DNA of 64,000 bases. It comes from Struthio camelus (Eukaryota > Chordata > Aves > Struthioniformes > Struthionidae). A program made the position numbers and the translations under genes. The number at the start of each line of letters is the position of its first letter. Position 1 is the stretch's first letter. The stretch spans positions 26,037,068 to 26,101,067 of the forward strand of contig NC_090952.1 in NCBI RefSeq assembly GCF_040807025.1. The letters run 5' to 3'. The notes under the pieces are model-generated. The model saw nothing but the letters and a program-made list of their open reading frames with translations. It did not search any database and was not told where the DNA came from. Below are positions 36,301 through 61,100 of this stretch, piece after piece.

Positions 36301-39300
36301 AACCCATGCAACGTCTCGCCTTGCAGCGGCCGCAGTGGGAAGATGAGGGCCCTCTCCTTCAAGACGGGCATTGCATGTCTGTGCGGGACGGAGGTCAAGG
36401 AGAAGTTTCAGTGTGAGTCTGCCTGTCTCCCTCCCTTAGGCTGGTGTGGGCTCCTTGGAGTAACCTAGAAAAAGCAGGAGTGAGAGGTTTTCTGGCTTAA
36501 ACCTTCTTTGCCCAGAAAGAAGCAGCAGCTTTCATGCGGTGACTAATCTGCTTGCATTGCCACCCCTCCCCTCCTTCCCTCCCCAAGCCTACGCCGCCTA
36601 ATTTAGAAGGTGTTTTTGCACACTGACTGGTGCTGCCGTGATCTTGCTTGCATGGCACTATAAGGAACGTTGCAGAGAAGGCAAACAGACAACAGTTATT
36701 CAGTGCTTCTCATAAGGAAAAAAACCTGGGGGCACATGGCTGGGCAGCAGGTTTCAGACAAATTAAAGCAAGCACCTTTCCTCACAGTGTTTAACCGTGG
36801 AGTTCACTGCTGCAGGATACTGTTGAGGCCCAAAGCGCTGAGGGGTTTAATAAAGGGCTCAGACAGCTCCTTAGAGGACAGGCCAGCCATGGCTATTAAA
36901 GAAGTGATGTGAATGTAACCTCTGTCTCAAGTACACTCTAAACTTCTGATTGTTGGGAGCTAGAAGGATACTGGTAAAGGTCTTTTAGTCCTAGTTCAGT
37001 TTCTTTCCCGCTGCCCTTAAGCATTTGCTTAAGCTCCCTGTTGGAGACAGGCAGCTGGACCCCTGGTCTGACCTGTGCAGCACTCTCCCATGCTCGCATC
37101 CTGCTCTGTTTGTCAGGGCATCAGGTGTGTCGCTAACATGGATGTCTCCATGTCCATCTGGATGGCAGATCTCTTCAGCCAAGTGGCAAACCCTGGGGGA
37201 CTGTGTGACCAGCGGCACCTCGGCGTCCTGCTCCATGAGGCCATCCAGGTCCCACGCCAGCTGGGGGAGGTGGCGGCGTTTGGGGGCAGCAATGTGGAGC
37301 CCAGCATCCGCAGCTGCTTCCGCTTTGTGAGTAACATGCCTGTGGCCTGTGCCATCCCCTTGCAGCAGTCATGCTGAGGGAGAGGCTCTCGGAGATGGTG
37401 AGGAGTCAGCAATCTGTTGGAGCTGGCGCATAGCTCTGAGCAGCACCCTCTCGCTCTCTTCTCCCAGAGCAACGGGAAGCCTGCCATCGAGGCATCCCAG
37501 TTCCTGGAGTGGGCCAACCTGGAGCCACAGTCCATGGTATGGCTGGCTGTGCTGCACCGGGTGACCATGGCTGAGCAGGTGAAGCACCAGACCAAGTGCT
37601 CTGTCTGCCGGCAGTGCCCTATCAAGGGCTTCAGGTAGGGGATGTGATACGGGGTCATGGCCACCAAGGGGAATGCATGATGTCTGGTGGGAGCTGGGAT
37701 GGGTGTCGTTCTCCTCTCCCTACGGAGGCTGTGGGGAGCTGCAGGACTTGGGGTGACAGACAGGTACTGAGCATTTTGCTGCCACGTGGCTACTTTAGGG
37801 TCTGCCTCTGGGTCCACAGAGGTGCTGGCCTGGGTGGTGAGCTTGAATGAGGCTTCAAGGCATGAGCTAGTCCTGTCGGAATAGCATAGCTGGAAATGTC
37901 ACCCTGACTGGGCGCAGACTGTCCCAGAGATGTGGTCGCTGTCTGTAAGGGCTCCTTGCCCCAGCCTGGGAGGGAACTGCGTTTACGCCATGCTGTTGGG
38001 GGAACCTAGATCTCTGCAGCAGCAGTACTTCAGGCAGGTCAGAACCAGCTCCTCCTGGTGGCACCAGGAGAGGGGAAGGAGCCTGATGCTCTTCTGGAGA
38101 CTTCGGCCATCAGCACTGTGGGTTCAGAGGAGTATGATTAGCGCCCGTAAGCCACCTCTGTCCCTTGTATGTGTGCTTAGCATTTCTCGGGCTCTGAAAT
38201 GGCGCGTCTTTGCTGACTCTCATTACCTCCCAATGGCCTCTCCATCTTTCCAGGTATCGGAGCCTGAAGCAGTTCAACGTGGATATCTGCCAGACCTGCT
38301 TCCTGACAGGGCGAGCCAGCAAGGGCAACAAGCTGCACTACCCCATCATGGAGTACTACACACCGGTACGGAGCTGGGCTGGCCCAGGATGGTCTTGGCT
38401 CTGGGCAGCTCCCCCATCGGACACATCCAGCCTTGTGGTGCTTAGGCTGGTACAGCCACAGAAGTGGCTCCCTTGTACTTTTTGTTCCTCTTTGCGTGCT
38501 GGAAATTGCCTTTGGGCTTGTGGTGAGCAGGATGCCCGGATCCCCCAAGCACTCAGCTTGGCTTACGCCAGGCCCCGTGCAGGGCTGACTGAGCAGCCAT
38601 GTGCTCACCTTGCCTCCTGGGTTGTGTCTGCTTGGGGGAACTGCCTCTTTCTCTGTTGAGCTTGCAACCAGCCTCAAGGGATTTCTTTTCTGTGGATGTT
38701 GGCTCGTGATCCCTTGCTTTTTGTTAACCATAGCCTCGGTGTGTCTGTTTCTCTGCAGACCACATCCAGCGAGAACATGAGGGACTTTGCCACAACACTG
38801 AAGAACAAGTTTCGATCCAAGCAGTACTTCAGCAAGCACCCTCAGAGAGGGTACCTGCCTGTCCAGTCCGTGCTTGAGGCCGACTTCTCTGAGACGTGAG
38901 TGTTGGCTAGGCCCTGTGCCATGCCATGTCAGGCAGGGCTGAATGTGGGCTCCACAGGGGGAAACAGCATGTCAGCTGCAAGATGGGGCTCCATGGGGAG
39001 GGCTAGAGAGGGTAGCTTGCTGGGGGCTGATATAGCATCTTCATCTTGGAGGGGCAGAGGCTTCAGTCTCCCTCTCCAGCCTGTCCCTGGCTCTTCTCAG
39101 CCCAGGTGGGACCAGGGCAGGCTCTCCAACCCCTAGCTTTAAGTGAGGACTGCAAAGCCTTGCTGACCAGTGTGCGTCTCTTCCAGACCAGCTTCATCCC
39201 CGATGTTACCACATGCCGACACCCACTCCCGGATTGAGCATTTTGCAAGCAGGTATCACCGCTAGGCACTGTTGTCATGCCAGGCTGTGGAGCGTGGCTC

Positions 39301-42069
39301 CAAGGGATGCAGAGAGGCTTCAGGACAGAGGCACAGTGACCTCCCCACTGCATGCAGCCCCTGCCATGCTTCCTCATGTGCTACACAGCAGATATAGGTT
39401 GGCTCCAGCAGCTTGAGGCTGCGCTGTCGTTGGGAAGAAGATAGTGCCCCAGCTGCAGAGCTGGGCAAACCTGTCTGCTCCCACCTGCATGCACCACTTT
39501 GGTCTTGCCTGAGGCATGCCCGATGCTCTTGCAACAGGTCTTGATTTTTCTTTGTCTTAGGGACAGAACAGCCTCCACTTACTGACATGCTCTTCCCAGT
39601 ATGAACTCCTGACTGGGCCAGTGGGATTTTCCCTTGATGATTTAGACCTTCCAATTCATTCACCAATGTTACTTGCAAGATCCCTGTTGCTACTATTTTG
39701 TAATTTGTAACTCCTCCATCCTCACCACAGGCCCAGGCAGGGGAGGGACCTGAGGCATGCACGGAGCCTGTAGCCCAGGCCAGGACGTAGGTAGTGACTG
39801 TTATATACTTTTATCCTGTACCCTTGAGTATGCAAGAGGAGACCAAACCAGCTGCATGGCAGCCCTTTGTTCCTCAGACTGTTGCCTTGAATCAGCAGTG
39901 TTGTTTATTTCTAAAAAGGCAAAACTCAGTACGAATCTGTAAAGAGGGACAGACTAGAGCAGGTCAGCTGGGAGACTTCTACCAGAGAGGGCCCTTGCAG
40001 GGCTGCCACGGCTGAGGTGTATTGAACAGACGTTTAGGGTGCCTGAACGTGTCTCAACCTGTTTTTGTTTCCTTCAGGCTTGCAGAGATGGAAAGCCAGA
40101 ACTGCTCTTTCTTTAACGACAGCCTGTCCCCCGATGATAGCCTGTGAGTCCTGCCTCCTTTCCCTGCTCTGCAGTGCCTGCTTAGCCAGGACTCCTGTGG
40201 CCCTGGCCGCACCTGCCCAGGTCACATCAGTACTTCTCCTCTCAGCCACTTTGGGACTGAGGCTCCTGGGCACCACCAGCTACCCAGAGATGCTGAGCTG
40301 CTTCTGAGCTTTGTACCTGGAGCAGCCAGAATAAATTCCCATACAAAACCACGTCCCTCTGGGCTGCCCTTCCCTGAGGGCCTAGCGAGCCCCCGAGAGC
40401 GATGCTCCTCACTAACATGTTTCCTCTGCCTGCGGTAACAGGGATGAGGACCAGTACTTGCTGCGCCATTCCAGCCCCATCACCGACAGAGAGCCCGGGA
40501 GCAGCCAGCAGGCCCCGCACAGCCTCAGCACGGAAGACAAGGGGGAACTGGAGCGAATCCTGGCCCACTTAGAGGATGAAAACAGGTAGGGACACGGGCA
40601 GCTCTAAAAGTGGGATCTTGGTTCTAAGGGCAAGGAGCCAGAGAAACTCTGGCTTAGCCACAAGGGCAGAGCTCCAAGTGGAGCTGTGGAGTGGCTGCCA
40701 AGGCCAGAGGTCCTGGGAATAGCTGAGTGGGATTGGTTTGGAGGGTATCTAGGCTAAACCCTACTAAACCTTCGTGAGAGCACAAGCTCAGTGAGGACAT
40801 GCTCCCCAAGGAAGGGAGAAGGCTCTGTTTCCCAAAAACATTCCTGCCCCATTCCCAAAATATGTTTCCCTCTTAAACCCAAAGCTGGCTGAACTGAACC
40901 CAGGGCATTTCCATCTCTTGTACCCTGGGCTCCCTCGCAAACAGTGGCAGTGCTGCTGTGGGCTATGTGAGGTAAGGCTCTGAGCAGCGCAGCTCAGCTC
41001 AGGAGGAGGTTACTGCTATCCCTGCTCTTGTTCCCAGTCCCTTAGTGAGTAGCTTGCATGTCTCTCGTTTACTGCCTAAAAGGGATAGAGCTGCAGGCAG
41101 GCCACCCTATAGTGCAGGATGGAGTCCAGCACGGTGCAGGTCTTCCCGCGCACCAAAATAAAGCCCCCTGGGGTGTTTTGTCTCAGAGTTACTGGCCATT
41201 CCCAGCGCACAGCCATCAGGTGGTTCCAGCAGTCTTTGCAAAGGAGGATGGTAGCATTGATCTGGGCTGTCTTGCAGGATCCTCCAGGGAGAGCTGAGAC
41301 GTTTGAAATGGCAGCATGATGAAGCTGTGGAGTCTCCAACCTTGGCTGCAGGTTCCCCTGAATCAGTGCAAGACCCACGTAACGATGAGCTCCTGGCAGA
41401 AGCGCGAATTCTTCGGCAGCACAAGAGCCGTCTGGAGACCCGCATGCAGATCCTGGAGGACCACAACAAGCAGCTGGAGTCCCAACTGCACCGGCTGAGA
41501 GAGCTGCTGCTGCAGGTACCCACACAGCAAGGATTGGGGCAGAGCATATCCTTGGGGGTGGGCTTTGCCATGGCAGAGCTGGGGCAGTGGCAGAAAGGGA
41601 TGGTCAGAAGGTGCAGGACAAGGACAGAGGACTGTGACAAACCCCTTCTCTCTCCAGCCTCCGACAGAGTCAGATGGCAACGGTTCGGCAGCTTCTTCCT
41701 TGGCTTCGTCTCCGCACCAGTCTGAGGGCAGCCAGGTGAAGGAGCAGGAACACAACACCCCTGACACCGAAGCTGCAGGTGAGGATTGTAGCTGAGCTCT
41801 CATTCCTGCTCTCACAGTTTGACTGCTCCAGGGGAAGCTGCCACCCGAACACCCCATCTAGCCAGCTAGCAGGCAGCTCTGCATGTCCAGAGAGCCTACT
41901 AACCCCAGCTCTGCCTCCTCTTCCTGCTGCAGATGAGGTGGAGGCCAAAACACAGGATGTCAGTGTATGCCTGGAGGACATCATGGAGAAGCTGCGGAGC
42001 GCCTTCCCCAACTCTCGAGGTACTCGAGTGAAATCCCCGTCTCTGGCCTCTTACTGTTCCCTCAGATGA
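24309..42069 (+). CDS. DRP2: Dystrophin-related protein 2
   Basis: DRP2 is a short dystrophin relative; in mammals it binds dystroglycan and periaxin in Schwann cells. Coding exons: 24309-24416, 28482-28567, 29372-29528, 30768-30888, 30979-31247, 31757-31903, 32403-32481, 33329-33389, 33796-33857, 34170-34244, 35917-36118, 36327-36412, 37169-37326, 37468-37634, 38254-38365, 38759-38895, 39187-39252, 40078-40143, 40442-40585, 41278-41515, 41658-41778 and 41933 onward. All phases join, giving about 932 residues (human 957). Two spectrin-like repeats are followed by a WW domain ([20 protein letters not shown], about 325-355), EF-hand-like region, ZZ finger (CSVCRQC...DICQTC, about 580-630) and C-terminal coiled coil. 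The first exon ([16 protein letters not shown]) resembles human MQPMVMQGCPYTLPRC. About 28 human residues after it have no exon found here. A shorter form could start at [11 protein letters not shown] (28521). The end is uncertain: unspliced it stops at 42069, spliced to 42809 it ends GMTSLI. Confidence 0.93.
34490..35470 (+). mobile_element. Old CR1/L3-type LINE fragment in a DRP2 intron
   Basis: Lies in the intron between exons 34170-34244 and 35917-36118, in the sense direction. Ordered matches to the reverse-transcriptase part of CR1/L3 elements include AGAGCTTTTGATAAGGC (RAFDKA, the motif before the catalytic block), GAAATTCAGTGCTGATA, AGATCTCTGCTGTAGTCCTG, and CATGTCTTGAGTGTCATGTA (HVLSVMYC in place of the usual HLEYCVQFW region). 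Many small changes break every frame, so it is an ancient copy and not active. Confidence 0.6.
36680..36925 (+). mobile_element. Old CR1/L3-type LINE fragment, 3' part
   Basis: In the DRP2 intron 36413-37168. The order of blocks matches the 3' region of CR1/L3 elements: GTGGAGTTCACTGCTGCAGG, then GTTGAGGCCCAAAG, GGGTTTAATAAAGGGCTCAGA, and GAGGACAGGCCAGCCATGGC. An exon separates it from the fragment at 34490-35470, so it is an independent insertion. Confidence 0.55.
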
Positions 42070-43502
42070 AGTTTCCACCTCCACGGAGCCCTGCCCCAAT
42101 CCCACCCTCCCTGCAACGGCTGGTCCCCCGCAGCACCTGTAGCCACAGCGCTGCTGAGACTGGCACGCAGCCTGGGTGTGGAGAGGATGAGGAGTTCTTC
42201 CACCTGCGAGAAGGTCAGAGCTGCTGAGGGTGCTGACCCTACCGGGCAAGCTGCAAGGCAGACTCCCACCCTGCGCGGGGCCCTGCATCCCCATGGGCTG
42301 TTCCCCACAAAGACGGACAGACCTGACAGCACTGGGTTTGCAGTGATCACTTTAAACCACCTTCCTGCTTCTTTGTCCCTGGCTGGACCCCCCCTCCTGC
42401 AAGATGGGTGAAAGCACTGGTTACCTTGCAAAACTGAAGAAATGGTGCAAGCTCTTCTAGCTGCTCATGGATGGCTCTTCCCAGCAGGAACGGGACCAGG
42501 GGATGCTTGCGTGAACATCCCCCCTGCTTCCTGTGTGGAGTTTGGTGTTGGCACCAGTGGCCCCTGCTGTTACTTTCTGCCTGGCCCTTTTCTCACCCAA
42601 GGGGCAGAGACCTGCAGCTCCCTGCTTGACACCCTCCCTCACCCAGGCTGCGTGCAGCAAGGGGACGTTGCTTGGTACTAGCACTAAAACGGCAGCAAAA
42701 CTTCCTCTGCCTACGCATCCTCGCCCACTTTCTGCTGTTTGTTAACTTGCCTATCCTAACCAGGTGGCTCCAAGCGTCATTCTCCTGACCTCTCCGTTTC
42801 TCTTTCAGGTATGACCTCCCTTATCTAACACCTTCTGTGAGCCAGAGGCTTTCTCTAACCAGCTACCTGGCTGCTTTCCTCCCCTTCCTCTTAACTGCCA
42901 TGCTCCCCCTGCGGCAGGCCTCACCTGGACTCCCTCGGGAGCACCCTGGGCCGGTCACGCACAAGGCTTGCCAGCTCCAGAAGATCTCAGGGGAACATAG
43001 GCCACGTGGGAGCAGGGCTGTGGGCTCCTCTGGGGTCTGGCTCGGTTGCTCAGCCACAGCATCCAGGTTTGGATTCACCAGACTGCACAGAAAAGTTGAG
43101 AAGAAAGAGTTGAAGCTATGGAAGCTACGCGTCTCCCTCGGCACTTACGGGCTGCTGCCTTTGGCTGCAGGCCTTGGAGGACGCAGAGCTCAGCATCCTG
43201 CTCCTCTCCGGTTCTGCCCAGTGTCACCCAGGTTCATGGGTACCATAATGCTCCAGCAGCCACCAAACAGCCACCCAGTCTTGAAACTCTTTTTAACAGC
43301 ATCCAGCTACCAGCTTTACAGACTGAACTCTGCTGCTCAGCTCTTCGCAGCCACATGGGCACGTAGCATCTGGTGAGGAGAGTTTGCGAGGGTTACAGGG
43401 TAGGGAGGAGTCCATGTTAGAGCTTCAGCCCAGCTAGTAGCCTTATCTTGAGAGGAGCTTTATAACAGAGCCTTATCATTTAATTTGCATATATTTCTTT
43501 AT

Positions 43503-45937: not shown

Positions 45938-45943
45938 TTTATT
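45938..45943 (-). terminator. Poly(A) signal of the AIPL1-type gene
   Basis: AATAAA on the minus strand begins only 16 bases after the stop codon at 45960-45962. If used, the 3' UTR would be a few tens of bases, unusually short. Its presence supports the chosen frame as the true end of the last exon. Confidence 0.6.
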
Positions 45944-45959: not shown

Positions 45960-48900
45960 TCAGCGTGGCCCCGGCTGAAAGGCCCTGGGGCCGGCAGTCT
46001 GGCGTGGGGCAGCCTGCCCGGCGGCCACCGCCCGCTGGGGCCGGCTGCGCCCCGCTGTGCTGGCCCCAGGCCCCCTTTCCCCAGCCCCTGGGGCTGCGCC
46101 GGCCCCTTCCCCGGCTGGTGCGGGGCAGGATGGGGGCTCTTCTGCCCCTCCAGCTGGCTCCTCGTCCCCCCCAGGGGGCCCAGCCTGCAGCATCGCCCTG
46201 GCAGTGATGACCGTCTGCTCCGGCGGGGTTTCGCCTTGGCTGGCGCTGCCTCGGCTGCCTCCAGCACGCTGCCACCTGCAGCTGGCCCCTTGCAGCTCCC
46301 CTGGGGCGGTTTCGGACCCCGGCTCCAGCTCCGTGGGCCCTGCGCTGTGGCCTCTGCCCACCCGCCCCAGCTCCTTGCTGGGGGACCCCGGCTCCCCGGC
46401 TTGGGCCAGCTCTGCCCTGGTGGCGCATTGCTCGGCCCTGTGGGCTCCCTGCGCTGCGGCCCCTCCAATCTCGGCCTCCTCCAATGCCCCTCTGAGCTGG
46501 GCCTCCGCCGCCCCTCCGAGCCCGGCCTCCTCCTCTGCCCCTCCGAGCCCGGCCTCCTCCTCTGCCCCTCCGAGCCCGGCCTCCTCCTCTGCCCCTCCGA
46601 TCTCAGCCTCCTCCTCCGCCCCTCCGATCTCGGCTTCCTCCTCCGCCCCTCCGAGCCTGGCCTCCTCCTCTGCCCCTCCGATCTCGGCCTCCTCCGTCGC
46701 CCCTCCGATCTCGGCCTCCTCCGCCGCCTCTCCGAGCCCGGCCTCCTCCTCTGCCCCTCCGATCTCGGCCTCCTCCTCCGCCCCTCCGAGCCCGGCCTCC
46801 TCCGCCGCCCCTCCGATCTCGGCCTCCTCCGCCGCCCCTCCGATCTCAGCCTCCTCCGTCGCCCCTCCGAGCTCGGCCTCCTCCTCTGCCCCTCCGATCT
46901 CGGCCTCCTCCGCCGCCTCTCCGAGCCCGGCCTCCTCCTCCGCCCCTCCGATCTCAGCCTCCTCCGCCGCCCCTCTGAGCCCGGCCTCCTCCGCCGCCCC
47001 TCCGATCTCAGCCTCCTCCGTCGCCCCTCCGAGCTCGGCCTCCTCCTCTGCCCCTCCGATCTCGGCCTCCTCCGCCGCCTCTCCGAGCCCGGCCTCCTCC
47101 TCCGCCCCTCCGATCTCAGCCTCCTCCGCCGCCCCTCTGAGCCCGGCCTCCTCCGCCGCCCCTCCGATCTCAGCCTCCTCCGTCGCCCCTCCGAGCTCGG
47201 CCTCCTCCTCTGCCCCTCCGATCTCGGCCTCCTCCGCCGCCTCTCCGAGCCCGGCCTCCTCCTCTGCCCCTCCGATCTCGGCCTCCTCCTCCGCCCCTCC
47301 GAGCCCGGCCTCCTCCGCCGCCCCTCCGATCTCGGCCTCCTCCGCCGCCCCTCCGAGCTCGGCCTCCTCCTCTGCCCCTCCGAGCTCGGCCTCCTCCTCT
47401 GCCCCTCCGATCTCGGCCTCCTCCTCTGCCCCTCCGATCTCGGCCTCCTCCGCCGCCTCTCCGAGCCCGGCCTCCTCCGCCGCCCCTCCGATCTCGGCCT
47501 CCTCCGTCGCCCCTCCGAGCTCGGCCTCCTCCGCCGCCCCTCTGAGCCCGGCCTCCTCCAGCCCTCGCTGCTGCCCGTCTCCCTTTCCCGGCTCCGCGGC
47601 CCCGCTCTCTTCCTCCACCTCCTGCTCTGGCCCCGTCCCTGCCCCGCTGCTCTCGGGCTCTGCCCCGCGGTCACGTGCGTTGGCGACTCCCCCCGGCCCG
47701 GCCCTCGCCGCCCCTCGCCCCGCTGCCCCTTCGCGCCCGGGGCCCCCCCGCTCTGCTCCGTCGGCCCCCGCGCCAGGGGGCCCCCGCGGCTGGAAGAGCC
47801 CCTGGTAGCGCTTCCGCTCCTCCACCTGCTTCTTCCTCATCCTCTCGCCCAGCAGCTTCAGCTCCTTCTTCACGGCGGCCGCCATGGCGGGGTCGAGGTG
47901 GGCGGCGCGCGCGAAGTCCTCCCGCGCCTCCCGCTCATTCCACACGGCCGCGTGGGCCTTGGCCCGCTTGAAGTGGGCCTTGGCGTTGCCTGTGCCGGGA
48001 GCGGAGCCGGGCTGGGGTCCCGCCGCCCGGCCCTGGGGGCGGGAGCTGGGGACGGGAACACCGGTGCCACCGCGGGCACCACCGTGGGTGGAGGGATGGG
48101 GACACCAGCACCACCATGGGCACCACCATGGGCAGGGGGAGGGGGACACCGGTGCCATTGTGGGCAGGGGGACGGGGACACCAGCACCACCACGGGCAGG
48201 GGGAGGGGGACACTGGCAATGTGATGGGCAGGAGAATGAGGATTCAGGTGCTGTCACAGGTAGAGGGATGAAGACACTGACACCGCCATGGGCAGGGGGA
48301 CCTGGGACACCAGCACCATTTTGGGTAGGGGAATGGGGACACTGGCACCATCGTGGGCAGGGGACAGGGACACTGGCGCCGACGAGGGCAAAGGGATGGG
48401 GACACTGGCACTGTCACAGGCAGAGGAATGGGGGACACAGGTGCTGTCATGGGCAAGGGGACTGGCACACCAACACCATCGTGGGTAAGGGGATAGGGAC
48501 ACCAGCACCATCATGGGCAAGGGGACCTGGGCCATATGGGGGTCGAGGTGGGACCCAGGGACATGGGTTGAGCACCATCAGGGACATGGGCAGGGCACCC
48601 GGGGACATGGCCCCGTGCGGGCAGGTCCCCGGGGCCGTGGGCAGCGCGGTGGCCGGGGTGCGGGTACCGTTGTGCTTGTGGAGCAGCTCGGTCGTGTGCT
48701 CCAGCACCTCGTAGTACTCGCCCAGCTCCAGCTGGCACTGGCAGTAGTTGAGCACCAGCGGCGTGACCAGGCTCTCCAGCTTCAGCCAGGCGTCCTCCCA
48801 CGGCTTCTCCTGCCCCAAGAGCAGCAGCGGGTGGGACGTGGCCACAGCCACCCCCGGGGAGGGCGAGCAGGGCCCCGCGGTGGCCGCTTTGCCAAGGAAA

Positions 48901-50532
48901 CCCGGGCGCGTGGCAGAGCTGGGCTCTGGAAGGTGGCTGCTGGCTGGAGGGTGGGGGGCCACCACGGCCCCAGTTTGGTGGCCACGGCCGGCTCCCACTC
49001 ACCTTGGCCTGCAGGTTCCTCAGGCAGATGACGGCCTCCTGGTACTTCTCGGCCGCCTGACGAAACTCCTTGCGGAGGACGAGGCGGTTGCCCTCACTGT
49101 GCAGCACGGGCACCGCCGCCAGCTTCTCCTCCTTGCTCATGGCCCAGGTGTCCCGCTTGTAGGCCAAGGGCTCCTCCACCTGCGTGGCAGCAGGGCTGAG
49201 CCGGCCGCTCCGGCTGCACCGCCCTGGCCGCCGGCCGGCCCCGCGCCTCCCCGCTTACCCGGAACAGCTCCATGATGAAGATGAGGGGCTGCGGTGCCCG
49301 CTGCAGCTCGTCCAGGTCGGCGTAGCCCGTGCTGTGGTAGTCGAACATGTTGCCCATGCCGCAGCGGTGCTTCTGCCCTTCCAGGGGGTCCCGGCCCTCT
49401 GCGATCCGTCGCATGCCCTTGGAGACCAGGGCGTACATGCCCGTGTGCTGCAAAGAGGATGCACCGCTCAGCTGCGCCGGGACCCCTCATCCTCAGGGCA
49501 GACCCCCTGTGGTGGCCAGGGCTCAGAAACCCAGCAGCTTGGCCTTGGGGAAAGGGGGAGGACCCCCCCCTCCCCCAGGTTGGGCCCCCGCGAGCCCAGC
49601 ACTCACGATGGCGTCGCACCAGAACTCGGCCACCTCCCCGGCCCGCATGGAGCTGAGCAGCGTCTCCCAGATCTCCAGCTTGAACATCTTGCCCACGATG
49701 ATCTCCATGGGGATGCCAGCCTCCCGGCTGTCATCGATCACCGTCCGCTCGAAGTCGTCCTTCAGTGTCTGGAAGTGGAAGGTGATCTGCCCCGGAGAGA
49801 GCGTGGTGCTGCTGGGGTTGGCGCTGCAGCAGGCGCCCTGCGCCAGCCCCGGCCCCGCTCGGCCGCGTGCCCCGGTGGCAGGACAAGCCTGCTCCCAGCT
49901 GAGCGCGGGCTTGACTGGCAGCTCTCCATCTACGGTGCAGAGATCGAGCCTGCTACCAGCTTGTCTTAGACAGAAAGCAGATGGTGGAGCATCTTAACGC
50001 CCATCGGTGCTGTATCTGGCTGCTCCTGTTGGATACTGCTTTATAACCCAGTGCAGGAAGTGCTCCTATAGCCAGGACCTCATGGTGCCCACGTGGATCT
50101 GGCTGTACCCACGGGCTGGTGGCCTCAGAACCCCCTCCCCCCCCCCCCAGTGCTCCCTGTTGGCACCTCCGCTCCTGCTTGATATGCGTCAGGAAAGGGA
50201 GGCAGATTTGCAGCAACCTGCCGTGGCTGCTGAGCTCCGCATCCCTCGCAGGGAGCAGGTGGGTATCAGCAAGGTGCACCCACCTTGCGTGGGGTCTCCC
50301 GGTACCACAGGCCTGGAGCTCAGCTCGTGAGCAGGGTACAGCCACTGGGAACTCAAGCCTGGGGTTGTGGGCGGGGATGGAGTTGTCCAGCCTTCCCCCT
50401 TTCTCTCCGGGCTTTGAGGCAACGACCCATGCTTACCTTGCTCCCATCTTGGAACTTGGGCAGCTCCCCTTGGCCTCCGTGTAAAATCTTCTTTTTGACG
50501 CCTTCCACATTCAGCAGGTAGGTTTCCTCCAT
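45960..50532 (-). CDS. AIPL1: AIPL1-type FKBP/TPR co-chaperone with long acidic repeat tail
   Basis: Mammalian AIPL1 is a photoreceptor co-chaperone that works with HSP90 to fold PDE6. Six exons on the minus strand: 50437-50532, 49607-49786, 49259-49447, 49003-49179, 48668-48809 and 45960-47989, of 96, 180, 189, 177, 142 and 2030 nt. The first five sizes equal those of human AIPL1 as I know them. The FKBP-like domain ([40 protein letters not shown]) spans about 1-160 and three TPRs about 175-320 ([46 protein letters not shown]). These are closer to AIPL1 than AIP. After residue 328 the frame stays open: a Gly/Ala/Arg linker, about 41 copies of an acidic 9-mer (405-772), then a 165-residue tail. 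Total about 937 residues (human 384). The location is not that of mammalian AIPL1 (17p13), so this may be a moved ortholog or a paralog. Whether the full tail is made is unproven. Confidence 0.88.
46467..47565 (-). repeat. 27-bp coding minisatellite with 162-bp higher-order period
   Basis: About 41 tandem units of 27 bp in the last exon of the AIPL1-type gene. On the coding strand each unit encodes nine residues of the form (A/E/T)EEA(E/G)(I/L)(G/R)(G/E)A. Units fall into subtypes, and a block of six (162 bp) recurs: the same junction appears near 46915, 47077 and 47239. One unit near the 5' genomic end lacks a codon (AEAQLRGA). Because the unit is a multiple of three and has no stop in several frames, long open frames appear on both strands. 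Confidence 0.92.
48040..48540. repeat. Minisatellite in intron 5 of the AIPL1-type gene
   Basis: Tandem degenerate units of roughly 36-42 bp built from GGGGACACCAGCACCA and CATGGGCAGGGGGA fill most of the intron 47990-48667. Units differ by scattered substitutions and length changes. The plus strand is G-rich. Open frames across it are periodic junk, not a protein. Confidence 0.85.
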
Positions 50533-51149: not shown

Positions 51150-51542
51150 GAATCTGGTTTGCAGATACAAACAGTCCCCAAACACAGAAACAAGCTCCCA
51201 GCGGGCCAGAGCCCAAGTCCAACAGCCAATGAGATGCAGAAAGCTGTACGGCACGGGCCCAGCGAATTAAACCCCTTTGGGAGAATGGCCCTCAATAGGT
51301 ACAGTAAACCCGCGTGTTTCTGCTGCTCTCACAGGCAGTCTAATTCTTTCCTTTAGCCCCACCAGCTGAACCCGGCATGAGGTACATGAGAGCAGCTCTG
51401 GACACCGAGCCTCTAGCGCTGCCCAGAAGCACTTCTGGCAGCAGAGGTGTGGGACCAGAACAGACTTCAGCACGGGGGATGAAGCAGCATGGCAGCAGGC
51501 CTGCTCAGAGGCACAAAGACCCGCTCTGGCCAGGACTGCTCC

Positions 51543-54500
51543 TCACTTCTCCATGAGAGATTCCAGCTGCTCCTGCAGAGAGGTCATCTGGGAAGAGGGA
51601 GCGAGGTGTCAGAGTAAGGCACGGTAGGACCCCTTGCATCTCAAGCCCAAGCAGTAACCCTTATGCTTGCGTGGACCTTCCACCTACACTAGTGACTGCC
51701 TTGCTTGCCCACCACAGCGAGCCGTGCTGGTGCAGCAGGGGCCTGTTTGGAGAACCAGGCTGGCACACAACTGCCTTGCAGCCACTGCTGGGCAGAACAA
51801 CACGAAGCAGGGTGAGAGAAGAACCTGGGCAGGCAAGTGGGTAACCTCCTGCCTCGGCACCTGACTGAAACTGCCAGAAGAGTTCACCGGGCAGGAAACC
51901 TGCTGAGCCGCACCAGCTTCTACCCTTCTCGTACACGGGTGCTATGAGGTCTCGGTGTCATGCTTTATCCCAGCAACCCTGGATTTCTAACTAGGTGTGG
52001 CTTGGCTCACTGCTCCTCCAGAGGAAAGGCTCCTACACCCGTCTGCATCTTAGAAACCTCCACACAGCTACGGATGAGGTACAACCCAGCCCGGTTTGTA
52101 GTGCTGGAATTCAAAAGCAGCTGACATGGTACAAAATTTAGGAAACTGTGTCAGAGACCAAACCTAGAACTGTGCCTTTTAACTGAGCCTCATGCCCCAG
52201 TATTTCCCACTCTGTTGTGTGAGCTTTCTCACCTGCTGCTTCTCTCGCTCTTCCTGCTGCTTGAACTCATCCAGCACGGCTTGGAGACGTGTCTGCAGAG
52301 ACAAATACACCAGACTACAATTACCAACGTGCTCTCAGCTGAACAGCTGCTGGCACAATGTGTTCAGTGGTGCAGCAAACCCCAAACTGTGCTGACTGCC
52401 AGGGGCCTTATCTCCTGTACAGGTTCTTGGATTGCCTTGCCTCCATGGGGAAATGCTGGAGTGTATGGCCATGCCGCAGTTAGTTTTAACCCAGCACACA
52501 AAGGCCCCTTGGCTTTTCCAGGACAACAGCTGAATCAGTTTGCTGGGTCTAATATCAAGCTGGTGCTGAACAGAACACAAGATTAGAAGAAGAGGTCCCA
52601 AGAGAGCTCTCACCTTGAGGGCCAGGTTCTCTACTTTCATGATGAGATCCTCCTGGCGTTTCCTCCTGTCCTGGGTCTCCTGGAGTTTACTCTTCAGGTT
52701 GTCGATCTGTTTCTGGATCCCCATGACTAAGGGAGAGAGCAAGCTCAGATCTGCAGCAGCAGCGGAGCTGGGCAGCGCAGCCTGCCTAGCACACCACATC
52801 CTGCTGCGCTCTGCCGCCTGACTCACCTATCTGGTTGGACCCCTCGTTCTCCTGCTGCTGCCCATCAGACTCATTCAGCTTGTCCTGCAACTGCCTCTCC
52901 AAGTCCTCCTCCGTGTCCATGATGTTCAGATCCTCGTCATCATGATGATCCCTCTCATCCTCATCTTCGCTGCTGCTGCTGATGTCATTAAATATCTCCC
53001 GCAGTTCATCATGTTCTAGGTGGTGCAAAAGGAGAGGACAAACATAGCTGATGATGGCCCAGCACCCTTCATCTGTCAGGGGCCTCATCAGTACACGGTG
53101 CCTGTCTCCATGCAGCCTGCTATCCTTCAGACATTGCTACCCAAACTAACTACAGCGTGCACAGGGTCTTTCTCATAGCTGTTATCTACTGCTACGGCAA
53201 ATGGGTACCTGATCCAGCAGATTACAGGCTTGTGACACACCGGCCTCTCCTTGCACCCAGGGTGACACCCATGCACATCTTGCATGTGTTTGCGAGGTCT
53301 CTGGTTCCAGCTTACCCCAGAGAGAACAGGCCCCACTGATTACTTTATGGCTAGAAACAAAACGATAGCCTTCCCCATGGTACCTGAGGAGCCATGGCCT
53401 TGTTTATGTCCAGACATCCCTGGGGAGGAGATGTCTAGGCTGGTGAGTGAGCCATGGTTATCCACTTCTTTAGTTTCATCTTCAGCAATGACTTCCCAGC
53501 CTGACAGCAGGAACAGAACGAGTCAAGGGAAAAAGAGGACCATGGAAGATGCAGTACAACAACAGAAAGCTAAAATCTGCAGGAGATCACTGCTCCCTCT
53601 GGCCTTGCAGCTATAGATTTCCAGGCTGAGCCACCCTGGTGTTTGTTCTTTGAAGGCCTGTCCTCTGCTGTTACTTAATGCTGTGCTCAGTGCATGAGCA
53701 CAGTCCCCAAGGAAGATCCCCATGGAGAAACAACACGCTTTGAACAAGGCAAAGGTAAAGCTCTAACTTCTGTTTCTCTTGTGTGCTCATCTCTGAATCT
53801 CTCACACCCACGCACCAAGCTGAACTTGTCTCTCCTTTCCACAGTTCCAGATCACACCTACTGCCCCCTCCCCAACTTGAGTTTTTTTTTTTTGCTCCTG
53901 AAAGGATACGGACACTGACAGCTTCAGCATCGGTGCTCAGGAGACGCTTCACCTCTTTTTCCACATCAGGAGACTCAATATACTGGTGCAGAAAAGGCAA
54001 AGGCAACAGAGACACTGTTAAATACCTTGTACAGGTTGCTGCACACTGGTCAGCTCCCAGCTTCCACTGCTGGACAGAGCCCTATTTTGAGCCTCTCTGC
54101 TCTTATTCTTTTTACTTGGCCTTCACTCATGCTCCACCCAAGAAGGTATTTTTGCATCTCTAGAAAGTGCCCCATCTTTTTCTGTACAGAGCTCCTTGGT
54201 GGGTTGCATATTCTCACTTTTCTTTCACTCTGGCAGCCATCAAGAGCGCTTATGAAATCAGACATTCTGTGTGTATACTGGAAGTGCTCAAGGTGCAATT
54301 CACTGATGGATAGACAACTCAAGTCCCTCTCTTCTCACTCAAAAGAAGGTTTCATTTTTCACTTTTAAATTAGCCAGGGATCTTAATTACTGACACCACA
54401 CCTTTTCTGTGGGCTATAAGAATGTCTAAAGTGATTTGTTTCCCAAATGTCATGCAAAATATCACTCCATCGTGTTCTCAGAAAGAAACTGCAGAGCAAG

Positions 54501-57500
54501 AAGAATGAGTCTTCCTAGCCTCACGGTGCTGCACCTCCCCAACACCTTTCCTGGCTTGTGCATTTGCACAGAGACACCGTCTCCGAGCTCCATCTGTTCC
54601 CACTCCCCCAGCTGAAATGACAGTTATTCTATTTGTAGTGTTACTTGCTGGGGAAGTGATCGGGCAATGCACAGAGTTAGGATTCCAGCTGGGAAAGCAG
54701 CAATGAGTGAAGTCTCATTTGCATGGGACTCTTCCTTTCTTCTTTGTGAGCAGAAGGAGATGCACTGTGGCAAGGCAGCCACAGCAACGGAGCCTACCCA
54801 TGCTCTGCACCAAGGAAATGTTCAGAGGTACTAGTCTCCCCTTTTCCCTCTTCTCTGGCGAGGAAATATGTAACGCAAAGCTAAGAAACTCCATGTTTTC
54901 CGGACTGATAGACAGCTAGAGCTCTAATGCCTCCACTTTTCTTTCCCTTGGCTATCGTATCCGCACCTGTATCAGCGTGAGGGAGAAACAACTCACCTTC
55001 TTCTTAGCTGTTTTCCGGAATCGTCTCTTCCGCACATTTTTCAGGGGAAGAGTAACTGCGACAAAGGAAACAGATTGTATGTGTCAGGCAGATGGCCTAA
55101 GGGGAGAGCCGGGTCTGGCAGACTCAGAGAGAGCACTAAAAATGGTGCAGCAGCACTGTCGACACATGGCAGCGGTGAACACCCTGCACAGCTATGGGAA
55201 CGGGGGGGTGCGCAGAACCTCTACTCACTGCCATGGTTCCAGATGAACTTCTTCTCTCTGTCCTTGTCCTTTTTCTTGTTTGCCTTGGGGTCAGTGCTCA
55301 CGGTTTGCTCTTCCAGAGGGGGATAGAGGTCACCATCCACAGTGCAAACAAGCATCTGAAATCCCCCCCACAAACACAAAGCTTGCTTATGGCAACGGAA
55401 GGGAAAAAGGATGTGAAAGCTTTTCAGGAAAATCAACAGTGACTTCTACTGCACGTAGTTAGCCAGAGGGATTCACAGGCACGGGGGGGATGAGGAAAAC
55501 CATGTTTCACAGCCAACACAGTTCATGACTAAACACAGCTGCAGTTAAGCTGTTATAAGGACAGTGAAGTGTCATGCTTCAGAAAAGGGAGATTCCCAAA
55601 CACCAGGCAGGGGTGGGGAATTTTAAACGGCTAATAGTGTAAGAACAGAGAAATTAGCTATGTTATGTCAGGTGTTCTACTGGCAGAGCATACCACGATT
55701 TTCCTGGAGAGGGGAATCAGCAAAGAAGCTGTTGGGGTAGGAACGAAGGACGGCCCATACCTGGCAAATATCTGCTGTCTTATAGAAGGTTTTCTTATCA
55801 ATGGTTTTTAAGCTCTCAGTGATGCAGGGCAGATCCACCAACTTGGCTGCCAATGGAACTCGGTCTACGCGGACAATCCCATGGCGCCCATCCGCTGCAG
55901 AAAGCCAAAGGAGAGGTTAGTGCTGCAGACAGCTCACTAAACAGAACAATAGACTCCTGGGCAGGAAATTTCACAGGAAAATACATGCAGGAGGCAGGAA
56001 AACCCAAGTTCTGTGCAGTTTCGCTTGCGGGCAATCACAGGAGTTTTAAGATGCCCTTAGCAATGTGGTCTCATGTCAGAGCAGAAGGGCAGACTGCTGG
56101 CTTGCACCCTACAGCTGGGGGAAGAGCCTTCTCGTGCCAGGGCAGGCACGTGAACTCTCTCCTGAAGGTCCGTCATTTACAGGATCACAAGAGTAGCTGC
56201 AGTTTGAAGGCACCTCTGCAGATTGTCTGTCCGAGCCCCCTGCTGCAACAGGGTTGACTACAGCAGGTTGCCCAGGACCACGATGGGTTCTGAATACCTC
56301 CAAGGTTGGAGACTCTACAACCTCTCACGGCAACCTGCTCCAGCGTTCAAACACCCTCACAGCAACCAAGCGTTTTCTTAAGCTCTAGCGGAACTTCCTG
56401 TGTCTCAGTTCGTGCCCGTTGCCCCTCGGCCTGATTCTTGACCAACAATCACGTCCTTGTTAGCACAACAGCGAGCGACACCACACAGCTGATGTTTCAC
56501 CTGAACCAACATTTTCACCTCAGAATCCCAAGCCTTTCTGATGTGCACTGGGAAGCTGAGGTGAGAACACACATTTTCAAGGTTGCAGAAATCAGCAAGA
56601 TCAGGCCAAGAGGCGCTACTAAAGACATGGCCTCACGTGGGTGAAGATGGGCTGCTCAGCACGGCCGGGAGTTTCTATCGAGCCAGGCTGTTTTGGGGAG
56701 CGCGTGGGGTAAGCAGGCTCTTCCATCCTGACACAGCAGAAGCAGGTGTGAAAACCAGGCCAGTTAGAACGAAAGCAGGTTTTACTAAGGCACACTTCTG
56801 CTGCGGAGGCTGCGTGGCCGGGCGAGCAGACAGTTCCTCATTCGAGGGCAGATGTGTTTCTGACAGCAAGGCCGTCCGGCAAAGCAGGTACTGGCCAAGT
56901 GCACCTCTCCCCAGCGGCTTCTGTTTGATACATATAGAAGCCCTGAAGCCTTAACTGCAAAGCCCAGGGTTGGAAAGGCCTCTTACTTCAAAACCTTCCT
57001 CAGCAGGAGGACTAAAGGCAGCAGATCCTGCTCGCTCACCGTGTAGCTCAATGGTGAGCCTGTCCTTCAAGTTGACGCTGCCAGACTGTACTGCTCTCCG
57101 CACGGTAGATGCATACTCCTGGAAAGGTTGGACAGGGCATGAGAAGACCAGCTTTAAACATCACTGTCATGCCAAGGCAGAACAACTCCAAAACCACTCT
57201 AAAAGGCGCAAGAACAGTACCCTCCGCTCAGAGCCATGCGTTAACCTTGTGGCTCTGCTATTCCCAGGGCACGTCACGTCCCACAGCGTGACCGGGCTAC
57301 AAAGGCGTGAGGCCCCTGACGGCGCTGCCCGCTCAGAGGATGACGGTTCTAGGGGAAGTTAAAGCTCCCCTCTCCAAACTCACGTGCTTTCAGCAGGCCA
57401 CAGGGTCCCAGATTAAGCATACGCTAAACAGCATTAAGTGCACTGACAGCGAGTGAGCGGCCAGAGGAACCGACGGCCCGTCACTTGCAACAGCAAGGAT

Positions 57501-57771
57501 TTTCTCCCTCGTCCTGCGGTTTTGCCTTCCGAGCATGGTCCCCCCCAACAGCAGGCTGCGGAGAACCTCCTCAGAGGGAAGGCCGGCTTACAGCAAACGG
57601 GCGACCCAGGGCCCAAAGCGGCCAGCCGCCCACCGGCGGCTCCCCCAGGCCCTGCGCCCAGCAGGCTGCGCAGAGCGGCCCGGCCCAGGCTGCGAGGGCT
57701 CTTACCGGCGGCAGCCGCAGCACGAACTGGCTCTCCAGCTCATGCGGCGCGTCGTCCTTGCTCTTGCTCAT
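51543..57771 (-). CDS. TAF7: TFIID subunit TAF7 (intron-bearing gene)
   Basis: TAF7 is a TFIID subunit that binds TAF1 and restrains its activity until initiation. Eleven exons on the minus strand join in phase: 57706-57771, 57040-57118, 55761-55894, 55229-55355, 54997-55055, 53910-53982, 53384-53500, 52827-53015, 52614-52726, 52233-52292 and 51543-51587. The product is 353 residues (human TAF7 349). It opens [20 protein letters not shown] and holds the TAFII55 domain ([52 protein letters not shown]), an acidic stretch ([19 protein letters not shown]) and a C-terminal coiled coil ([20 protein letters not shown]). Human TAF7 is intronless and thought to be a retrocopy of the X-linked TAF7L; the place of this gene next to DRP2 makes it the counterpart of TAF7L, though its protein is TAF7-like. 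Intron 6 looks U12-type. It starts head to head with the NIPA2-like gene. Confidence 0.96.
53501..53909 (-). other. TAF7: U12-type (minor spliceosome) intron of TAF7
   Basis: The donor on the minus strand reads GTATCCTTTC, which matches the U12 consensus RTATCCTTT fully. Near the acceptor TCCCTTGACT (53521-53530) matches the U12 branch consensus TTCCTTRAY at eight of nine positions, with the branch A about 22 nt from the AG. The intron splits the codon of arginine in SVRWEV, and reading frame and protein similarity require exactly this junction. The other TAF7 donors I read look U2-type. Confidence 0.75.
56178..56440 (-). mobile_element. CR1 LINE, 3' end fragment
   Basis: Inserted in TAF7 intron 2 in the minus orientation. 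The plus strand shows GGTTGCCCAGGACCACG, then CTCCAAGGTTGGAGACTC, ACAACCTCTC, GGAACTTCCTGTGTCTCAGT and GTGCCCGTTGCCCCTCGGCC, the well-known CR1 block order. The terminal CR1 motif is degraded near 56180. It is younger than the other LINE pieces here, judging by the better match. Confidence 0.85.
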
Positions 57772-58112
57772 CCCGCCTCCTCCGTAAGCCTGCCCGAGGA
57801 GGAGGAGGCGCGTTGCCGGCGGGGAGGCTCTGCCGTCGGTTCCCGCCGCCGAAACGCTGCCCCCGTCGGTGGGGAGGAGGGGGGAGAAGGGGAGGTGGCG
57901 GGGGGGGGGGGGTGAAACGGCCCCGCCGGCCCCTCGGCCCCCTGCCCTGCGCAGCGGGCGCCGCCGGAAGCCGGGCCGGGTGCGCCGGGCCGGGTGCTCC
58001 GGGCCCTGCGCTGGCCGCCGCCGCTCGCGTTCCGCCTGCCGCGCCGCCCCGGGAAGGGTTTTGGCGACGTACCGGAAGCGGCGGCGGTGGCGGCGGCGGG
58101 CGGGGAGGCGCC
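57772..58112. promoter_or_regulatory. Bidirectional CpG-island promoter of TAF7 and the NIPA2-like gene
   Basis: Only 341 bp separate the two start codons, which point away from each other. The interval is extremely GC- and CpG-rich, as is the flank to about 58650. Two CCGGAAG motifs (57964-57970 and 58072-58078) fit ETS/GABPA sites, common in bidirectional housekeeping promoters. A run of 13 G lies at 57900-57912. No TATA box is seen. Confidence 0.8.
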
Positions 58113-61100
58113 ATGGGGGGCGCGGGCGGCCGCCCCGGCTTCTACGTGGGGCTGGGGCTGGCCCTGGCCTCCAGCGCCTTCATCGGCGGCAGCTTCATCC
58201 TGAAGAAGAAGGGGCTGCTGCGGCTGGCGCGCCGCGGCCGCGCCCGGGCAGGTAGCGGCCGGGCGGGTCCCGCCGGGCTGGGGCAGCCCCGGCCCCCGCC
58301 GCCCTTCCGGCCCCAAAAGGCGCTTGCGGGGCAAGCGGCCGGCAGCGGCGGGGGGGGGCGGCGGCCTAGGTCGCGGCTGCTCGTCCGGCCCCCGCTTCCT
58401 CGGCCGGGGCAGCCGGCCGCAGCCCTGCGGCCGCCGGGGTTTTCCACAAGCTCCCGCTCCCCCCGTGCGGGCGCTGCCGAGCGCGGCCTGCCCTCAGCGG
58501 TGAAGTGTTTCCTCGCAGGCTGAGCGAGCAGGCGCTTGCCTGGGCCGGGCCTGCGCGGGAGCGGCTGCTGCCCCGGGGAGCCAGGGCGCCGTGCCGGGGG
58601 AAACGCTGCTGCCCCTTGGTCGCCAGCTGCCGGTTTGGCGGGGGAGCGGGCCTCGCTCCTGCTCCTCTCGCTTCACCCGAGGTTTCTTGTTGCTGTTCCT
58701 TTTTTTTCTTAGGGCAAGGAGGCCACGCGTACCTGAAGGAGTGGCTGTGGTGGGCCGGGCTGCTGTGCAGTAAGTAGCTCCTGTGGAACGGCTGCAAGAG
58801 CGAGAAATGCTGAGCGTGTCGTTGTTTCCACTTGCTTTCATGTTTTATTATCTCGATCAGAGTTTAACCACTTGATTTTTATCTCTAAGCATGCTCAGAG
58901 TGTTGCTGAACTAATTATAAAATACTCTAAAGCCTCATGTGTTGCCAGGCCCCCCCCCTGTGAATAGGACTTGAGGAACTGGGCTGATCGGGTTGGGTTA
59001 AGCGCTTCTGAAATGGCCTGCCCAAGCAGGAACAGTTAGATGATGTCACGTTCAGCACCGCGGGTTTATAGCTACAGGGATTTCAGCAGCTCGTATTTAC
59101 ATTTCTCAAATATGAAGTTAATGAGTGGTTGTACTCGATTGTACCCCTTACAGGGAGCTGTCTAGGAGAGGAGCATGATTTAGAAATATGTAAAGCGCAA
59201 AACTTCTTTCAGCTTTGAGGACAATGTGGAAATATTTTTCTGTTGTTGCTGCTTAGCTGGATAGACATGTAACCAAGAGCCCTGTGTAACCAAGAGCCTC
59301 CTCTTTCCAAGAGGATTGACATCAGAGTTTTACTTATTCTTGTTAGTACTGTCCTTTCGAGGTTGAACAAAATACCTTAGAGAAACAGTGCACTTGGATG
59401 GAAACCAAGGCTCTCTTTTGACTGCACTCAAACGTGTCTTATGCTGAATTGCTTCTACTCTGATGCTCTCCTGGGACTAACAGAGTTTCTCTTGCAGTGG
59501 GAGTTGGAGAAGCAGCAAATTTTGCTGCCTATGCTTTTGCCCCTGCCACGCTGGTAACTCCACTGGGTGCACTAAGTGTTCTTGTTAGGTAAGAAACCTT
59601 GGAAACCTCGGTATCTTGCCTGCTGCCCCTTAATGGTGAAAGCAGTTGCTTTGCTCTCCCCTATCCGCTCCCTCAGATACTCCATCCCTTGGCCTAATTG
59701 GCTTCTGGGGACTTTTTATTTTTGCTTTTTATCTTTCAGTGCAGTGTTGTCCTCCGCCTTCCTGAATGAGCAGCTGAATGTTCACGGGAAGATTGGCTGC
59801 ATCCTAAGTATTCTGGGCTCCACGGTGATGGTAATCCATGCCCCCCAGGAAGAAGAGGTTTCCAGCCTGGAGTCAATGGCAGAGAAGCTGAAAGATCCAG
59901 GTACTTAAGTAAAATGGGTCCTAGCTTCAGACCTGGAAATGACAGTGGAAGGCAGGGTACAACCTGGGTAGGCTGAGAAGGACTGAACTGAAGGGCAAAT
60001 GAGCCATCTGTGCTGTTCTGCACCACAGTGGAGGGAACGTCCCCCTTCTGGGGACGTCTGGGGTAGCCGGCTGATTGCTTTCTGTTTCGGAGGAGGCCTC
60101 CTTGGGTCTCCACCTCCTAAGTGTGAAACATTGGTGATGATCAAACTTAGCATTTAATGCAAGCACTCAGAGGATTTACACCTTAGTCGTTAACTCAAAA
60201 CAAAAGGGGGACATCTCGGCTTCAGAATGCCTTTTTAGGACTGTAGAGTCCTCTTGACTCCAGACAAAAGAAGCAGAGGGGAGCCCCACTTTACAGACAG
60301 GGAGTCTGGGTGATGCTCCCAAGTCACTGGGTCTGTTTTGAAGCAAGGAGGAGAATAAGGGTCACTAACAGTTATCAGATGTGTTTTTTCTGCTGTCCAT
60401 GCATGAGGTGCAGACAGGAAGAGAGAAGAACATCAGAGTTACCTGTCAACAGGCAGGATTGGCCTAAGGCGGTGCTGGGATAGGAAAGGGAATTGTCAGT
60501 ACCTGAGGGTGGCAGCGGTAGGGCTGAGGGAGGTCAGAGAAGGAATGTAAGGTGAAGATGAATGAGATGCAGGGAGTTCAGCCCGAGATCAGGTCATCCC
60601 TGATATTTATATCAGAGGATGAATCAGATTGCAAGGATGTGATTTGGGCAACAGCATTAGCGGCAGAGTAAGCAACAGGAGATGAGGAAAGGAGTAAAAG
60701 GGAGAAGAGCAAAGCAGAGTAACAGGTGAGTGCTGTTCTTCTTCAGAGAGAATGCTCTGGTGGGGTCTCACTTCTGTGAAGTGGAGCTTTTCCTTCCTAA
60801 TTTCTACCCCAACCTGTGCAGTTCTGCTAGCCCTTATCAAGCTTTCTACTGCCCCTCCCGCAGAGCTGTGCCCCAATTGTGCCTCCTGGCCTACACCACC
60901 TGCCCCCCGCCCCAGTGCCTTAGGCCCTGGTTGTGCCACTGCCCCTTCCAGTGCAGACAGCTGTATCTCCCAGACCGGCCAGCTCGCAGCACGGTGCTGC
61001 CATCAGCACTGTAAAGAATTGCTGTTGACTCTGCAGCTTTGCTTGGGCTGGAGACCATCTCTGCTTCCAAACAAGGCCCTAAGGATGGAGGATTCAAAGA

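Follow-up and report, generated by a model that had tools for sequence, protein, structure and literature searches.

On the minus strand of the 64,000-nucleotide stretch of Struthio camelus DNA analysed here (the window), we found an AIPL-type gene whose co-chaperone core continues, within the last exon, into a long acidic repeat tail. We read it as a photoreceptor co-chaperone gene of the AIPL-2 type, in which the last exon codes, in the frame of the TPR domain, for a translated and disordered extension that consists mostly of an expanded 27-bp minisatellite and is apparently free of sequence-specific selection; the probability of this reading is estimated at about 0.6. Six exons join in frame, GT...AG is present at 5/5 introns, and the predicted protein has 937 residues and a calculated mass of about 96 kDa. 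Residues 1-328 form the core and residues 329-937 the extension (609 residues: 75 in the linker, 368 in the array and 166 at the C-terminus), which lies entirely in one exon (Table 1). The extension brings the protein to nearly three times the length of its core, which is intact.

A preliminary description of this DNA had proposed one TPR-frame reading through a linker, about 41 acidic repeats and a tail, ending 16 bases ahead of an AATAAA. The six-exon, 937-residue model bears this out, and 16 bases do lie between the TGA stop and the poly(A) signal. The extension total of 609 residues also stands; the tail was given as 165 residues and is 166 in our model. Between 47990 and 45880 the sense strand contains no further AATAAA or ATTAAA, and a scan of the same interval with a few strict consensus patterns gave no splice donor or acceptor within the last exon. 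Splicing inside this exon was therefore rejected at the level of the strict patterns.

Table 1. Positions of the features of the AIPL-type gene in the window
Feature	Position	Strand	Basis
Exon 1, ATG at 50532, start of AIP/AIPL FKBP-like domain	50437..50532	-	aligned to solved AIPL1 8eoa_C
Exon 2, FKBP-like domain	49607..49786	-	Pfam and alignment to solved AIPL1
Exon 3, FKBP-like domain	49259..49447	-	Pfam and alignment to solved AIPL1
Exon 4, end of FKBP-like domain and start of TPR domain	49003..49179	-	alignment to solved AIPL1
Exon 5, TPR domain	48668..48809	-	alignment to solved AIPL1
Separate, more diverged minisatellite in intron 5 (units ~32/64/160 bp)	48108..48526	-	
Exon 6, end of TPR domain and entire extension, stop TGA 45962-45960	45960..47989	-	
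Last 66 TPR codons (...YQGLFQ), GC3 0.98	47790..47987	-	
Linker, 75 residues, T 1.8%, fourfold GC 39/53	47565..47789	-	
Array of 41 acidic nine-residue repeats, 368 residues	46461..47564	-	
C-terminal tail, 166 residues, net charge -1	45963..46460	-	
AATAAA poly(A) signal	45938..45943	-	sole AATAAA/ATTAAA on sense strand, 47990-45880

Family and paralogue of the core

The best Pfam match of the protein is PPIase_AIP (PF23322) at 69.9 bits (cut-off 27), and TPR_2 alone scores under its cut-off (20.4 vs. 27). Among solved structures, AIPL1 (8eoa_C) matches with 459 bits and spans query residues 2-325, including the TPR domain from end to end; the AIP chains 8h77_F and 7zub_C reach 412 and 409 bits. 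The core is identical to AIPL1 8eoa_C at 192/324 sites and to AIP 8h77_F at 174/321, and AIPL1 and AIP share 164/319 with each other. Fifty-seven sites are common with AIPL1 only and 39 with AIP only. The FKBP part agrees with AIPL1 at 104/160 sites and with AIP at 89/160, and the TPR part is nearly equal in both comparisons (87/159 and 85/161, respectively). Judged by these alignments, the core is an FKBP-TPR protein of the AIP/AIPL family, nearer to AIPL1 than to AIP, and the difference sits in the FKBP part. The Pfam result, the structure matches and the gene model all support the initial identification of an AIPL-type FKBP-TPR protein with a last exon continuing into an acidic repeat tail.

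The neighbourhood was examined by Pfam on 10 neighbouring open frames, 5 of which matched. On one flank lies an EF-hand region of dystrophin type (EF-hand_2, with dystrophin as the top match among solved structures), together with a spectrin-like exon whose match is under the Pfam cut-off; TAF7 (TAFII55_N) lies on the other flank. The dystrophin-family gene is compact (30900-42200, plus strand), stands tail to tail with the AIPL gene, and on its sequence is probably DRP2. The TAF7 gene (51500-58100, minus strand, TAFII55_N in 55680-55916) contains introns. Human TAF7 is an intronless copy, and the intron-bearing gene found here is probably the ancestral form. The neighbours of human AIPL1 at 17p13 are presumably not those that flank the present gene. 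DRP2 and TAF7L fall in one deletion interval at human Xq22.1, as far as can be taken from the available text of PMC10201758 and from a reference title in PMC9440042, and human AIPL1 has been mapped to 17p13 (PMC12733016).

According to the accessible text of a review, vertebrate AIPL proteins fall into AIPL-1 and AIPL-2 clades, the platypus, bird and reptile homologues all belong to AIPL-2, and zebrafish aipl1b is an AIPL-2 gene (PMC12733016). The same text says that birds and reptiles hold only AIPL-2, and states, in its own wording and despite the platypus, that AIPL-2 was lost in mammals and amphibians; the reference it cites for the phylogeny turns out, in its list, to be a paper on gene therapy (PMC12733016). 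Because of the synteny (dystrophin-family gene, AIPL gene, TAF7) and the phylogeny given in the review, the gene is probably an AIPL-2 paralogue of the zebrafish cone aipl1b type rather than the orthologue of human AIPL1. The original label "AIPL1-type" thus holds for the family, and probably not for the paralogue. Human AIPL1 and its proline-rich tail would therefore be paralogous comparisons.

Composition and turnover of the extension

The array consists of 38 full 27-bp units preceded by one diverged 27-bp unit and followed by a diverged 24-bp and a diverged 27-bp unit, 41 in all. Tandem Repeats Finder reported a period of 27, 40.9 copies and 0% indels. The array is rich in Glu, Ala and Gly and carries a net charge of -125 over 368 residues, and the last 60 residues of the protein are mildly basic (net +3). 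In the tail as a whole, 612 residues were counted: 156 E, 145 A, 138 G and 29 P, which sets it apart in both composition and length from a proline-rich tail of ~56 residues. When the last exon was modelled by itself with AlphaFold2, from a single sequence, 550/675 residues received a pLDDT below 50. In means over ten residues, the first 60 exon residues, which belong to the TPR domain, scored above 90, and exon residues 491-529, at the end of the array, formed a helix of low confidence (64-72). The extension is predicted to be disordered.

The 38 full units differ at 10 sites, with 3 silent and 7 amino-acid-changing variants. Each unit offers 21 possible silent, 56 changing and 4 stop changes, and the observed 3:7 corresponds to the neutral ratio. 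Similar silent-to-changing ratios were found in the other five frames, so that the test of selection has little power. At this low power, purifying selection on the repeats was not apparent, and weak constraint would be compatible with the 10 variable sites. The sole length variant in the array is the 24-bp unit of eight residues, which differs by 3 bp and thus in whole codons. We considered whether the linker and the tail are worn copies of the 27-bp unit, and rejected this. Their lag-27 identities were 0.38 and 0.34 against expected values of 0.40 and 0.33, and their best matches to the unit were no better than those of most shuffles.

The composition of the array could also point to an acidic tail under selection for a function of its own, such as a platform for polyglutamylation or a ciliary or cytoskeletal tether in the manner of RPGR ORF15 or the GARP part of CNGB1. 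We regard this as doubtful. The strong negative charge, the Glu/Ala/Gly-rich composition, the predicted disorder, and the succession of an acidic array and a mildly basic end would all suit such a domain. The variants among the units speak against it, within the low power of that test, as does the net charge of the C-terminus taken whole (-1). In addition, GEEEG, EEEG and EEG, which we take to be glutamylation motif strings, occur 0 times each in the protein; this is a crude check, as the published motif may differ from these strings. For the analogy to RPGR drawn in the preliminary description, the mildly basic last 60 residues are in favour and the absence of these strings is against, at the level of this crude check. 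The CNGB1 GARP region, a glutamate-rich, acidic and disordered photoreceptor segment, is alike by description and belongs to a different protein. RPGR ORF15 resembles the present tail in being a purine-rich, repetitive, Glu/Gly-rich segment of a photoreceptor protein, with an ORF15 region of 567 residues in the available text of PMC9897430. RPGR is glutamylated by TTLL5 via the Glu-Gly region and a basic domain, which is conserved, and it has 11 glutamylation motifs (PMC9897430, as far as accessible); neither such a domain nor such motifs were seen here in the crude check, and the host protein is unrelated.

Evidence for and against translation

In the TPR frame, the frequency of G at codon position 1 minus that at position 2 (G1-G2) was 0.240 for the linker, 0.163 for the tail and 0.187 when the two were pooled, with about 0.16 in exons 1-5 and about 0.25 at the end of the TPR domain. 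Among non-coding frames these values were reached by 1/7368 (linker), 7/6996 (tail) and 0/6726 (together), and when the controls were limited to frames with a GC content ≥0.55, by 1/1500, 0/1056 and 0/894, respectively. The controls were overlapping segments of the same length at a step of 31, with the DRP2-like, TAF7 and NIPA-type gene regions left out. G1-G2 was picked after the table of G by codon position had been seen; the frame had been set beforehand by the TPR domain. A profile built from the 38 full units also favored the TPR phase, both in the linker (-48.1 vs. -55.9 and -59.4) and in the tail (-54.3 vs. -59.3 and -60.6).

The extension is also poor in T, with 6.0% in the tail and even less in the linker (Table 1), as compared with 14.5-20.6% in four introns measured whole. 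None of the segments elsewhere was as T-poor (0/4922 for the linker and 0/4880 for the tail; overlapping, both strands). The T content changes 18 bases before the stop and the GC content at the stop (45962). We rejected these change points as strong coding evidence, since stop codons need T and the coincidence with the stop is partly mechanical. Taking the phase statistics and the T content together, we consider that the extension is most likely translated.

The uninterrupted frame emphasized at the outset is real in that no stop is present, and it is weak as coding evidence, as open frames are common here. The array can be read through in two of the three sense frames and the tail in all three, and 26.8% of 1000 dinucleotide shuffles leave the linker plus tail without a stop. 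Another same-strand frame is open for 675 codons (47836-45812, minus strand); it overlaps the AIPL exon, is rich in Arg and Ser, runs beyond the poly(A) signal, and is probably a mere by-product of composition. Because the exon is G-rich and T-poor, and other frames and shuffles are open as well, absent stops carry little weight, and open-frame length was rejected as coding evidence in view of the 675-codon frame and the open shuffles. The array itself exceeds chance; the lack of stops does not.

Codon composition changes at the end of the core. GC3 falls abruptly straight after the TPR helix (...YQGLFQ), and G or C occupies 137/144 of the fourfold sites of the core as against 142/196 of those of the array and 84/112 of those of the tail, with the linker as given in Table 1 (Fisher test against the core: linker p = 6e-5, tail p = 5e-6). 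The wrong phases score alike (44/48 and 43/54 in the linker, 81/108 and 70/107 in the tail), and fourfold GC therefore fails to mark the TPR frame. It was rejected as proof of non-coding DNA too, as a value of ~75% is within the range of real exons in the window: 58/83 in a NIPA-type exon, 8/10 and 10/11 in TAF7, and 27/32 in the dystrophin family. The NIPA-type exon, the one of these with a measured GC content (0.52), lies in much less GC-rich DNA.

The codon-position chi2 of the tail was 9.3 (p = 0.16), and non-coding controls gave a median of 6.2 and a 95% value of 14.0 (n = 40, overlapping). For the linker alone p was 0.07, and for linker and tail together 0.007. The codon usage of the core predicts a chi2 of ~30-32 for linker and tail each, and 0/1000 simulations were as low as the observed values. 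The low chi2 and the fall in fourfold GC place the extension outside the codon regime of the core. We read this pattern as that of a young or fast-turning-over coding extension, and not as proof of non-coding DNA.

The same shift in codon regime would also fit an extension that is untranslated in most transcripts, either through a base-count error in the linker or through a splice or polyadenylation choice that hides a short tail, with the array an untranslated minisatellite. The linker contains homopolymer runs (G5, C5, G5, G7 at 47749-47743, and G6), and a single-base change at the G7 run would suffice: one base more closes the frame at 367 residues, and one base less leaves no stop before the AATAAA. 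The drop of fourfold GC to about the GC content of introns (0.64-0.74 in four introns) would fit as well. We nevertheless think this explanation unlikely. The G1-G2 signal holds the TPR frame in the linker and again past the array, contrary to what a linker frame error would produce; the sense strand of the last exon offered neither a second poly(A) signal nor a strict splice match; and the T content is far under that of the four introns.

Within the array there is a 162-bp higher-order period and a 283-bp exact self-match at lag 162, which means that the latest expansion is recent or that the assembly misjudged the length. That the array length is an assembly artefact, by collapse or duplication of a 162-bp block, is very unlikely: the self-match is perhaps beyond short reads, but the units vary along the length of the array and are diverged at its two ends, as a real minisatellite would be, and an error of whole units would keep the frame and alter the repeat number only. 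The minisatellite of intron 5, just upstream of the repeat exon, has one or two stops per sense frame. With this second minisatellite the locus seems prone to such repeats.

Possible function and known systems

AIPL1 is a folding partner of the phosphodiesterase of phototransduction and a blindness gene. On its similarity to the family, the co-chaperone core described here is probably functional: its FKBP-like pocket would accommodate the PDE6 prenyl group, and its TPR domain would engage HSP90 and the PDE6 gamma subunit. We infer that the gene is expressed in cones. In zebrafish, Pde6c is markedly decreased in the aipl1b mutant (PMC5381001, available text). The extension, if active at all, would most likely serve, by analogy with the human tail, as an entropic brush of charged residues attached to the last TPR helix, which would raise solubility and electrostatically tune access to the TPR groove. 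Slippage in steps of whole codons would change its sequence and length, with no apparent sequence-specific selection, and the copy number should therefore be polymorphic. A more specific proposal is that in this lineage a PDE6 co-chaperone of the cone type has come to carry, in its main expressed form, a length-variable brush of about -125 charges, in which the 27-bp copy number sets how far the TPR groove is screened from HSP90 and the PDE6 gamma subunit. This we find quite unlikely; if true, the copy number would be a natural VNTR dial on the supply of cone phosphodiesterase.

One precedent is zebrafish Aipl1b, the AIPL-2 cone co-chaperone affected in the gosh mutant. In the accessible text of Iribarne and colleagues, aipl1b lies on chromosome 14, its product is 45% identical to human AIPL1, and the mutation is a nonsense change at Gln413, so that the protein reaches at least residue 413 (PMC5381001). 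As Aipl1b extends past the TPR domain, an AIPL-2 protein with a tail has a precedent. Its C-terminal region is described there as not homologous to the proline-rich domain, and that text mentions no repeat array (PMC5381001).

The proline-rich domain of human and other primate AIPL1 is alike in being disordered, repetitive, rich in negative charge and C-terminal to the TPR domain, and its length varies, probably by slippage (PMC12733016, available text). It differs in being a primate-specific, proline-rich tail of ~56 residues on the AIPL-1 paralogue (PMC12733016), whereas the tail described here has 609 residues, mostly Glu, Ala and Gly, on a probable AIPL-2. The accessible part of the review reports that the acidic disordered human tail modestly lowers HSP90 affinity and adds to general chaperone activity, and that a later study found it dispensable (PMC12733016). 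The present locus offers a natural test of this disputed AIPL tail, as repeat number should vary between individuals and species.

No comparable AIPL tail was found in titles and abstract openings of the open literature searched, and such tails may already sit in predicted bird or reptile entries. Pattern scans matched 3 stretches in viral contigs and 18 in genome contigs, with 0 relatives in either, in a collection expected to be without vertebrates. If birds and reptiles run their photoreceptors on AIPL-2, the locus is an example of the form this paralogue can take. It serves as a warning, too, that in G-rich, T-poor sequence an open frame is nearly worthless as evidence; here only the frame-phase statistics favor coding.

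Two further features were noted in the window. At 2228-2533 (minus strand) there is a Lys/Glu-rich, coiled-coil-like open frame of 102 codons, maybe an exon, which had no Pfam match. Exons of a NIPA-type magnesium transporter are located at 59576-61845 (plus strand; 198.8 and 64.6 bits), and the open frame of the last of them terminates in a run of Glu codons.
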